From: Hyphomonadaceae bacterium
GTDB taxonomy: Bacteria; Pseudomonadota; Alphaproteobacteria; Caulobacterales; Aquidulcibacteraceae
Direction: 5' to 3'
Length of the DNA: 64,000 nt
NCBI GenBank assembly: GCA_009773395.1
Contig: WRPI01000002.1
Span: forward strand, 358,413 to 422,412
How positions within the stretch are numbered: the stretch's first letter is position 1; each line of letters begins with the position of its first letter. The notes under the pieces were generated by a model that searched no databases, was not told where the DNA came from, and saw nothing but the letters and a program-made list of their open reading frames with translations. Position numbers and translations under genes: made by a program. Shown here in pieces: positions 61,112 to 63,250 of the stretch.

Positions 61112-62107
61112 ATGAACACCAAAGCTCAAACTTATCACCGCTTCAGCGTCGCGCCCATGATGGAATGGACCGATAGGCATTGCCGCGTGTTGCACCGAAT
61201 ATTCACCAAAAAGTCGCTGCTTTATACTGAAATGGTGGTATCCAAAGCGATTATTCGCGGGCTTCGTGGCAAGCTTTTGGGCTTTAATCAACAAGAACAC
61301 CCAGTTTGTTTGCAAATTGGCGGCTCCGAACCCGATGAATTGGCTCAGGCCGCAAAAATTGCGCAAGAATATGGCTATGATGAATTAAACCTCAATGTTG
61401 GTTGCCCGTCAAAGCGCGTGCGATCTGGTGCTTTTGGCGCTTGTTTAATGCTTGAGCCCGAATTGGTTGGGGATTGTTTGCAGGCAATGCGTGAGGCGGT
61501 GACAATACCTGTCACAATAAAACACCGCATTGGCGTTGATGGCCAAAACCCGCGTGAAACCTTATTGCCATTTGTGGAATATCTGGCAGGTAGGGGAACC
61601 GACACTTTCATTATTCACGCCCGCAAAGCAATTTTGAAAGGCCTTACACCCAAGGAAAACCGCGATATTCCGCCGCTCGATTACCCCTTGGTTCACGCAA
61701 TTAAAGCCGAATTTCCACATTTGAATATTATTCTTAATGGTGGCATTCATTCGCTTGAACAGGGCAGGCGCGAAATGAGGGATTTGGACGGAATTATGTT
61801 GGGCCGCGCCGCTTATCGTTATCCCGATATTTTAGGGCAAGTCGATAATATGTTTTTTGGCGACAGCCACATTGTAACGCCCTTCGAAGCCTTTGCCGCC
61901 TATCGCCCCTATGTTGTCGAACAATTAGCCAAAAAAGTCCCCCTCCACGCCATGACCAAACACATGCTCGGAATGTTCAAAGGCCACAAAGGCGCAAGCG
62001 CCTTTCGCCGCATTTTGGGTGAACAAACCGTCCCGCGCGAAACTGGGATTGAGGTTTATGATAGGGCGATGGAAGCGATTGAGGCGGAGATGGGTGTGGG
62101 GGTTTAG
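61112..62107 (+). CDS. dusA: tRNA-dihydrouridine(20/20a) synthase DusA
   Basis: A FMN enzyme that reduces uridine to dihydrouridine in the tRNA D-loop. The 331-residue protein has RFSVAPMMEWTDRHCRVLHRIF, the catalytic-Cys segment NLNVGCPSKRVRSGAFGACLM, TIKHRIGVDGQNPRETL and HARKAILKGLTPKENRDIPPL, all typical of DusA. The ATG at 61112 gives the usual N-terminus. The last residues are GVGV and the stop TAG lies within the left inverted repeat of the DUF559 element. Confidence 0.95.
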   Translation: MNTKAQTYHRFSVAPMMEWTDRHCRVLHRIFTKKSLLYTEMVVSKAIIRGLRGKLLGFNQQEHPVCLQIGGSEPDELAQAAKIAQEYGYDELNLNVGCPSKRVRSGAFGACLMLEPELVGDCLQAMREAVTIPVTIKHRIGVDGQNPRETLLPFVEYLAGRGTDTFIIHARKAILKGLTPKENRDIPPLDYPLVHAIKAEFPHLNIILNGGIHSLEQGRREMRDLDGIMLGRAAYRYPDILGQVDNMFFGDSHIVTPFEAFAAYRPYVVEQLAKKVPLHAMTKHMLGMFKGHKGASAFRRILGEQTVPRETGIEVYDRAMEAIEAEMGVGV

Positions 62108-62168
62108 GAGTCTACCCCCCAGTCTCGCTTTGCTCGACAGCCCCCCTATAAATAGGGAGGCGGCTTGG
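62103..62168 (+). repeat. Left inverted repeat of the DUF559 element
   Basis: About 65 nt, starting TTTAGGAGTCTACCCCCCAG, match the reverse complement of 62556-62619 with few changes. A small internal hairpin CCCTAT/ATAGGG is included. It begins inside the dusA stop codon. Confidence 0.85.
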
Positions 62169-62189
62169 CAGTGGTCGCGTATCGTTGGT

Positions 62190-62570
62190 ATGGGCTTTAT
62201 GCATCGAAACTACCTTTATCCCGTTGCTCGTAAACTCAGGAAGACTATGACGCTTCCAGAAAGACTGCTTTGGAATTTGCTTAAGCAGCGCGGTGAAGGC
62301 GGAATTGTATTTCGGCGGCAATATCCGTTCGAAAATTATATTTTTGATTTCTATTGTGCCAAAGCCAAACTTATTATTGAAATTGATGGCCTTGTTCACT
62401 CAATCGGAAATAATCCGCAAAGGGACGCGGCACGCGATGAATATCTGACATCATTGGGGTTTAAAGTTTGGCGAATTGAAGCGAAAGAAGTACTCAAGAA
62501 TCCAATAGAAATAGCAAGCAACATTAGGTATTTTTGCTATCAAATCGTGTGGGCAAAGCCGCCCCCCTAA
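62190..62570 (+). CDS. DUF559 (Vsr/endonuclease-like) protein
   Basis: A 126-residue protein of the DUF559 family, which has a PD-(D/E)XK or very-short-patch-repair nuclease-like fold. Markers are ARKLRKTMTLPERLLWNLLKQRGEGG, FRRQYPFENYIFDFYCAKAKLIIEIDGLVHS and YLTSLGFKVWRIEAKEV; the Asp/Glu in the middle segment and QxP are likely active-site parts. The start may be 62190 or 62199. The stop TAA lies within the right inverted repeat. The gene lies wholly between the two repeats, like cargo. Confidence 0.85.
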   Translation: MGFMHRNYLYPVARKLRKTMTLPERLLWNLLKQRGEGGIVFRRQYPFENYIFDFYCAKAKLIIEIDGLVHSIGNNPQRDAARDEYLTSLGFKVWRIEAKEVLKNPIEIASNIRYFCYQIVWAKPPP

Positions 62571-62619
62571 TTTTAGGGGGCAGTCGAGCGACGCGAGACT
62601 GGGGGGTAGACTCCCTAAA
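62556..62619 (-). repeat. Right inverted repeat of the DUF559 element
   Basis: The reverse complement of the left repeat, ending ...GGGGGGTAGACTCCCTAAA. It contains the internal hairpin CCCCCTAATTTTAGGGGG, the stop codon of the DUF559 gene and the stop codon of the convergent carbonic anhydrase gene. Confidence 0.85.
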
Positions 62620-63250
62620 CCCCCAAAAACTCGCCGCTAGTTTCATTAAGAACCGAGAGTTGCCCGTGTTCAATGTCAAAAATCGCGCCATGGAGGCGCA
62701 ATTTGCCGCGTTTTTCTAAGAGGCGCACAAATGGAAAGGTGCGTAGGTTTTTTATCGAGTGTTTTATGCCTTCAAGCCCTAATTCATGGCATTGGTGGTC
62801 GTGGGTTTGTGCAGTGTTTTCCATGATTTTGGCTTTTGGCTCATCGAGAATGGACATCCATTTGGAAATGAAATTGGCTTCGGTTTGAATGGCGTTGTCA
62901 CTATCCAAAGCCACACTTATTCCGCCGCAACCGGAATGGCCAAGGATAATGAGGTGGTTGATTTGCAAGTTCAAAACCGCAAATTCAATTGCCGCCGAAA
63001 CTCCATGATAGCTGCCTTGGGTTTCATAGGGCGGCACGAGATTGGCGACATTGCGCACAACGAATAAATCGCCGGGGCGGGCGCTGAAAATGGTTTCGGG
63101 GTCAACGCGGCTATCGCAGCACGAAATAATCATGATTTCGGGGCTTTGGCCGCCAATTGCGAGGCCCGAATAATGTTCTGAATGGCGTTCAAACACCGAT
63201 GATTTGAAATTGCGATAGCGTTCAATCAATTGGTTTGGAAAACCACCCAT
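62615..63250 (-). CDS. can: Beta-class carbonic anhydrase
   Basis: A zinc enzyme interconverting CO2 and bicarbonate. The 211-residue protein has IISCCDSRVDPETIF (zinc Cys44, the Asp46/Arg48 dyad) and ILGHSGCGGI (zinc His105 and Cys108), with NVANLVPPYE between them. The ATG at 63250 overlaps the stop of the folate-binding protein gene upstream. The last residues, EFLGV, and the TAG come from the right inverted repeat of the DUF559 element. Confidence 0.95.
   Translation of the reverse strand: MGGFPNQLIERYRNFKSSVFERHSEHYSGLAIGGQSPEIMIISCCDSRVDPETIFSARPGDLFVVRNVANLVPPYETQGSYHGVSAAIEFAVLNLQINHLIILGHSGCGGISVALDSDNAIQTEANFISKWMSILDEPKAKIMENTAQTHDHQCHELGLEGIKHSIKNLRTFPFVRLLEKRGKLRLHGAIFDIEHGQLSVLNETSGEFLGV

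Follow-up and report, generated by a model that had tools for sequence, protein, structure and literature searches.

A DUF559 nuclease gene between inverted palindromic repeats forms a small mobile unit of a widespread kind

Few repeats are as common in bacterial genomes as short palindromes. In the systems of REP/REPIN sequences and RAYT enzymes (TnpA-REP, REPtrons), such palindromes are intergenic and occur as singles and as inverted pairs; in the open-access literature searched, a dedicated enzyme was found only for the GTAG class of short palindromes. CGTC-tagged REPs were described without a dedicated transposase (Di Nocera et al. 2013, PMC3733652). The Caulobacter protein VsrA, which carries a DUF559 domain, was proposed to be a mismatch-repair enzyme and is genetically tied to DNA damage in cells without a cytosine methyltransferase (PMC12907096), and one DUF559 gene was assigned to the EDxHD family (PMC9403480). 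No paper tying DUF559 to inverted repeats or REPs was found in the open-access literature searched.

The window, i.e. the whole 64-kb stretch of DNA analysed, is part of a 2.63 Mb genome with 99.9% completeness. Within it, a dusA-type tRNA dihydrouridine synthase gene (Dus, PF01207; 61112–62107, + strand) and the beta-carbonic anhydrase gene can (Pro_CA, PF00484; 62615–63253, − strand) were convergent and flanked, from outside, a unit consisting of a 126-codon DUF559 gene (62190–62570, + strand; PF04480, E 8e-30) and two inverted repeats. The gene, encoding a 126-aa nuclease of the PD-(D/E)XK, Vsr/EDxHD-like type, was the sole gene between the arms, and no DDE, Y1 or serine transposase was encoded in the unit, in line with the initial annotation, which had noted the lack of a transposase. 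The same annotation had placed the unit at 62095–62620, within a few bases of the gapped arms determined here (62097–62170 and 62551–62625). The ungapped core arms (62098–62145 and 62576–62623) comprised 48 nt with 88% complementarity. Since the local-alignment score of the arms was 99, whereas none of 605 control placements in the 64-kb window scored above 36, the arms are not a product of chance, and the earlier description of a gene inside near-identical inverted repeats, each with a small hairpin, held.

Each arm contained a C-rich/G-rich hairpin (CCCCCCTA...TAGGGGGG) and a smaller hairpin (CTCGC..GCGAG). Starting from the main hairpin, the order was AAGCCGCC-CCCCTATTTATAGGGG-GGC, the small hairpin CGAGC-GAA-GCGAG and a third block, GGGGGGTAG. 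In the left palindromic repeat (62112–62170, + strand), the third block (CCCCCC) and the small hairpin preceded the main hairpin, CCCCCCTATAAATAGGG(A)GG, which was closest to the gene. The right palindromic repeat (62551–62609, − strand) was inverted relative to the left one and, as annotated before, contained the stop codon of the DUF559 gene (TAA, 62568–62570), which fell within the hairpin of that arm. The main hairpin of the window arms had no flanking GTAG or CGTC tag. On one strand, the far end of the third block read GGGGGGTAG, a displaced GTAG that was present in six of the seven copies of the window family and that most repeats in other genomes did not show at their ends. Single-arm folding energy was dropped as evidence, with z-scores of −1.5 to +0.2 relative to shuffled sequences; the energies were unremarkable because base composition alone yields similar values. 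The evidence for the arms is their repetition, not their folding energy.

The stops of dusA and can both fell in the outer portion of the arms. The outer extension of the left arm (TGGGGGTTTAGGAGT; 62097–62111, + strand) included the dusA stop (62105–62107), and that of the right arm (ACTCCCTAAACCCCCA; 62610–62625, − strand) overlapped the 3' end of can (stop at 62615–62617). These outermost 12–17 bp (TGGGGGTTTAGG..AGTC) were inverted copies of each other, and none of the five solo copies had them. On the can side the sequence looks native, since a relative ends in FLTV*; target DNA may therefore be present as an inverted copy on the dusA side.

The AlphaFold2 model of the window protein had a mean pLDDT of 87. 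The best-matching solved folds were NGO0050 of Neisseria gonorrhoeae (3hrl) and the catalytic domain of I-Bth0305I (3r3p), with TM-scores by target length of 0.83 and 0.77, respectively; Vsr (1vsr, 1cw0) scored lower. Residues E25, D54, D67 and H71, plus E65, were invariant, and the first four form the predicted active site (numbering from a modelled stretch of 127 residues, starting one codon before the ATG at 62190). The modelled protein thus has the EDxHD/Vsr catalytic fold and its residues. The invariant residues match those proposed for Caulobacter VsrA and for Vsr (PMC12907096). The Vsr domain PF03852 was not matched at E 0.001; PF04480 and, weakly, PF18741 were matched instead.

The genome of the window contained seven close copies of the repeat: the window pair and five more at other places that have no DUF559. 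These seven served to build a covariance model, which gave 26 matches in the same genome, including seven gene-less inverted pairs (e.g. C15:90490–90656, C8:433601–433748 and C6:185414–185591). Copies with or without the gene were also sought in relatives, as had been proposed earlier. Among the five genomes of the genus compared, strong copies (>50 bits) occurred only alongside a window-type DUF559 gene, in G000, G003 and G004, and not in G001 and G002. In G003, a related DUF559 gene was located between two repeats of the window family in the opposite orientation. Proteins related to the window DUF559 (L022/L057) were encoded between repeats of the same family, in the orientation opposite to that in the window.

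At dusA/can, the proteins of the nearest relatives were approximately 60% identical and the gene content was different, with a membrane-protein gene in some; no clean dusA–can empty site was found among these relatives. DUF559 is therefore not constant at this locus. A second DUF559 gene in the genome of the window (L001, C11:41390–44689) was embedded in a long array of another palindrome type (CTTCCCTCGAGGGAAG...GACGGAAGGGTG) with alternating orientation. Additionally, three DUF559 genes in the genus (L004, L015 and L025) had no detectable flanking repeats. Since L015 and L025, from two species, had neighbouring sequence in common, they may represent a fixed, non-mobile version.

DUF559 units were duplicated as wholes. 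Genome G002 contained three copies of another DUF559 unit in three places, with 87–92% identity over approximately 535 bp, and the DNA outside TTGTCCTCCCC...GGGGAGGA was unrelated between the places. No target-site duplication was seen at the three copies. Paralogous units were also found in G231 (86% identical) and G083 (67%), and their similarity started and stopped where the inverted repeats do, to within approximately 20 bases. Near one of the G002 units, a 109-bp tandem duplication with 92% identity was observed (L020:2900–3116).

Units also came and went at orthologous sites. The junction between dnaN and recF, where a DUF559 unit was found in G233, was compared in 108 species of one genus, probably Bradyrhizobium: 45 had a DUF559 unit and 63 did not. 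The junctions without DUF559 comprised 27 with a GIY-YIG gene, 11 with a short spacer (66–123 bp) containing neither gene and 25 others. Species with 97–99% identical flanking genes differed at this site, e.g. L259 without and L326 with the unit, and presence of DUF559 required at least 37 changes on a tree of the short flanks, a count that may include local recombination. Neither a base-exact empty site nor a target duplication was found at dnaN–recF, since the spacer outside the units also differs between species, over its whole length even between 97–99% identical flanks. Of the 45 DUF559 open reading frames at this junction, 36 were intact, and the genes were under purifying selection (median dN/dS 0.12). 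The palindromes bracketing the GIY-YIG gene at the junction were unlike those of the DUF559 units. The junction (in G094, G170, G208, G233, G244 and G307–G418) was a single intergenic site that repeatedly hosted differing repeat-bracketed nuclease genes, and the turnover of its DUF559 and GIY-YIG occupants between species was very fast.

The arrangement in the window was widespread. In a broad sample of 80 DUF559 loci from public genomes, 76 loci, from 12 phyla (including Pseudomonadota, Bacteroidota, Bacillota, Chloroflexota, Cyanobacteriota, Planctomycetota, Acidobacteriota and Verrucomicrobiota), were scorable, and inverted repeats with a score of at least 36 flanked 53 of them, compared to 28 of 5280 placements of the same size in the same contigs. 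In a second, independent sample, drawn from 249 Pseudomonadota genomes, inverted repeats flanked 64 of the 93 DUF559 genes, compared to 22 of 2927 control placements. The control rate of bracketing was thus 0.5–0.8%. No flanking repeats were detected at approximately 30% of the DUF559 loci. Presence of inverted repeats required 40 changes on the DUF559 tree (null mean 47.5, minimum 39); since this clustering is weak, we do not claim a clear repeat-less DUF559 subfamily. About 40% of the sampled Pseudomonadota genomes contained DUF559, which was patchy in its distribution and reached up to 10 copies per genome. True Vsr genes, members of a related nuclease family, were flanked by inverted repeats in 0 of 30 cases.

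The repeats followed a common plan across phyla: a pyrimidine/purine hairpin and, after it, a block of purines in mirror image of the 3' stem. A hairpin with a C-rich 5' stem and a G-rich 3' stem was present in 223 of 234 arms, and most arms had the extra purine block beside it. Where its form could be distinguished, this third block mirrored the 3' stem in 112 arms and repeated it directly in 21, with 38 ties; no p-value is attached to these counts, since neither the arms within a locus nor related loci are independent. Examples of mirror blocks are GGGGAGAGGG-TT-GGGAGAGGGG and GGGGGAGG...GGAGGGGG. A mirror image is not predicted by Watson–Crick pairing and is predicted by a purine-motif triplex; some forms of the third block also fitted a G-quadruplex pattern. 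Judged from these patterns, the repeat strand, when single, could form an intramolecular purine triplex or a G-quadruplex. The side of the third block, toward or away from the gene, changed 12 times on the DUF559 tree, compared to a mean of 21 and a minimum of 15 after shuffling, so repeat orientation is clustered on the tree. In G431, the genome of locus L084, CCCTCTCC palindromes formed arrays with a regular spacing of 99–102 bp (C86:31142–31556 and C110:88455–88779).

The number of repeats in a genome followed the presence of DUF559. The hairpin CCTCCCC-loop-GGGGAGG, a pattern picked after seeing the G002 unit and not from genome counts, was counted in the 249 Pseudomonadota genomes with subtraction of a reversed-polarity control. 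Among the 71 genomes with a strong match to DUF559, 38 had an excess of at least 10 hairpins, as did 2 of the 178 genomes that had no such match (odds ratio 101, p 9e-23), and the Spearman correlation for this link within the class was 0.82. The remaining 33 of the 71 DUF559-positive genomes had no excess of this hairpin, the only type counted. Since shared ancestry inflates the p-value, more weight is given to the contrast within families, seen in most families with both kinds of genomes, and to the Vsr control, which had no genome-level link with these hairpins (odds ratio 1.7, p 0.17; 249 genomes). Vsr as an alternative driver of the repeats was rejected on this result together with the lack of bracketing. 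In 32 genomes, all reached via DUF559 loci, hence DUF559-positive, and mostly outside Pseudomonadota, the pattern CCCTCTCC-loop-GGAGAGGG occurred 791 times, compared to twice in the reversed form. The repeats are thus genome-wide but not unrelated to DUF559, which they track. With the paralogs ending at the repeat ends, the presence or absence at an orthologous site and the bracketing of DUF559 genes in general, this link supported the mobile unit that the initial annotation had suspected.

A second nuclease gene was associated with palindromes of another kind. GIY-YIG genes at dnaN–recF (L269, L275, L279, L280, L284, L287 and L288) were bracketed by TGTCATTGCCGGG...CCCGGCAATCCA, which by its sequence fits the CGTC-tagged REPs. 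Solitary GIY-YIG loci (L289–L318) were bracketed by inverted repeats in 19 of 30 cases, most of them of the CGTC/TGTC...CCA type. Genomes rich in repeats of the CGTC type comprised 28 of 65 with and 14 of 184 without GIY-YIG, and among DUF559-negative genomes 10 of 26 with and 8 of 152 without GIY-YIG; at the cut-off applied, GIY-YIG was not matched in 14 of the 42 CGTC-rich genomes. Among GIY-YIG-positive genomes, CGTC-type repeats were not associated with DUF559 (p 0.61). The CCTCCCC hairpins were found in 29 of 39 DUF559-positive and 0 of 26 DUF559-negative genomes among those with GIY-YIG, so that the DUF559–hairpin link is independent of GIY-YIG and, in DUF559-negative genomes, the hairpins are not linked to GIY-YIG. 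Since they also followed GIY-YIG among DUF559-positive genomes (29/39 with and 9/32 without GIY-YIG), the dissociation is strong one way and partial the other way. Genome co-occurrence supports a pairing of GIY-YIG with CGTC-tagged REPs, parallel to that of DUF559 with its repeats.

The unit in the window is one member of a widespread set of small mobile units, in which two inverted palindromic repeats surround a DUF559 gene. The gene is linked to the repeats, the units are mobile, and genomes with units also have the repeats scattered as single copies and as inverted pairs without a gene, i.e. as non-autonomous, REPIN-like derivatives. The best explanation, to which we assign a probability of roughly two-thirds, is a system like REP/RAYT, a comparison already drawn in the initial annotation, with a Vsr-fold nuclease in place of a tyrosine transposase as the mobiliser of the repeats. 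The same gene-in-repeats unit in more than ten phyla, with a matching load of scattered repeats, suggests that the DUF559 family spreads a large repeat class without a known mobiliser. We infer that DUF559 cuts the repeats. The protein, a hydrolytic nuclease, would recognise repeats of its own type when these are folded, either single-stranded or as a cruciform, and would nick or break DNA at or near them. Host repair would then fill the break with a copied repeat pair, either including the gene or lacking it, so that gene-less pairs and single repeats arise as by-products. A hydrolytic nuclease on its own does not explain integration; strands are joined by a tyrosine transposase but not by this enzyme, so that the units would spread by cut-and-repair copying in place of transposition chemistry and would depend on host repair.

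The main rival holds that the repeats spread by other means and that DUF559 is a free-standing EDxHD-type homing endonuclease that cuts gene-less pairs and is copied into them via the repeat arms. Among the closest solved folds is the homing endonuclease I-Bth0305I, gene-less inverted pairs of the same repeat occur in the genome of the window, and the opposite orientations of related proteins within one repeat family (the window and L022/L057) would be expected if any pair could be entered. We nevertheless consider homing unlikely, since paralogous units bring their repeats along and hairpin-rich genomes without DUF559, of which homing predicts many unless the gene is often lost later, were nearly absent (2/178). 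The reading of DUF559 as a Vsr-like host repair nuclease in repeat-rich intergenic sites, with repeats that hitchhike or mark insertion-tolerant sites, draws on the mismatch-repair role proposed for the DUF559-domain VsrA of Caulobacter (PMC12907096) and on the purifying selection on the protein. It is very improbable and already disfavoured: true Vsr genes had neither flanking repeats (0/30) nor a genome-level association, control positions in the same contigs were rarely bracketed, and DUF559 was patchy, present in up to 10 copies per genome and duplicated together with its repeats.

MITE-like elements are commonly mobilised in trans, and the unit encodes no strand-joining enzyme, so a RAYT or other transposase encoded elsewhere could move the repeats with DUF559 as cargo. 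This is very improbable, since it leaves unexplained why DUF559, of all genes, rides across at least 10 phyla and why the number of repeats depends on it; the target-site duplication was also not seen at the G002 copies or at dnaN–recF. Returning to mobilisation by the nuclease itself, a broader proposal, for which we see even odds, is that solitary hydrolytic nucleases are dedicated mobilisers of major superfamilies of bacterial palindromes, DUF559 of pyrimidine/purine hairpins with a mirror block and GIY-YIG of CGTC-tagged REPs. They would form a transposase-free class that spreads by cut-and-repair copying and recognises a folded strand capable of triplex or quadruplex formation. Should DUF559 move its repeats, a role would be found for a domain of unknown function, and a large part of the intergenic repeats would have a mobiliser that works by a new chemistry.

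The DUF559 units resemble several described systems in part. Terminal inverted repeats and gene-less derivatives are shared with MITEs and transposons with terminal inverted repeats; unlike these, the DUF559 unit has no DDE, Y1 or serine recombinase and no target-site duplication was seen. The nuclease of the units has its fold and its active-site residues (E, D, D/H, H) in common with Vsr and with the DUF559 protein VsrA of Caulobacter, whereas Vsr genes are not bracketed by repeats (0/30). EDxHD homing endonucleases such as I-Bth0305I share the catalytic fold and the self-spreading nuclease gene, but the DUF559 unit lacks an intron, an intein and a long DNA-binding extension, and its gene sits in dispersed palindromic repeats. 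CGTC-tagged REPs (PMC3733652) are likewise intergenic palindromes of alphaproteobacteria and other phyla, mostly inverted dimers without a transposase; they belong to another sequence family, found here around a GIY-YIG nuclease. In REPtrons, too, an enzyme gene in one or a few copies stands between palindromes of a kind that is also dispersed in the genome, inverted pairs without a gene occur at other places, and the presence of the enzyme goes with the number of repeats. In contrast to REPtrons, which are defined by a Y1 HUH tyrosine transposase, DUF559 units encode a hydrolytic nuclease with a Vsr fold and so fall outside that family; in the window family, GTAG does not occupy the described place and is seen only displaced, and the repeats of the units carry a mirror-image purine third block and extend over many phyla.
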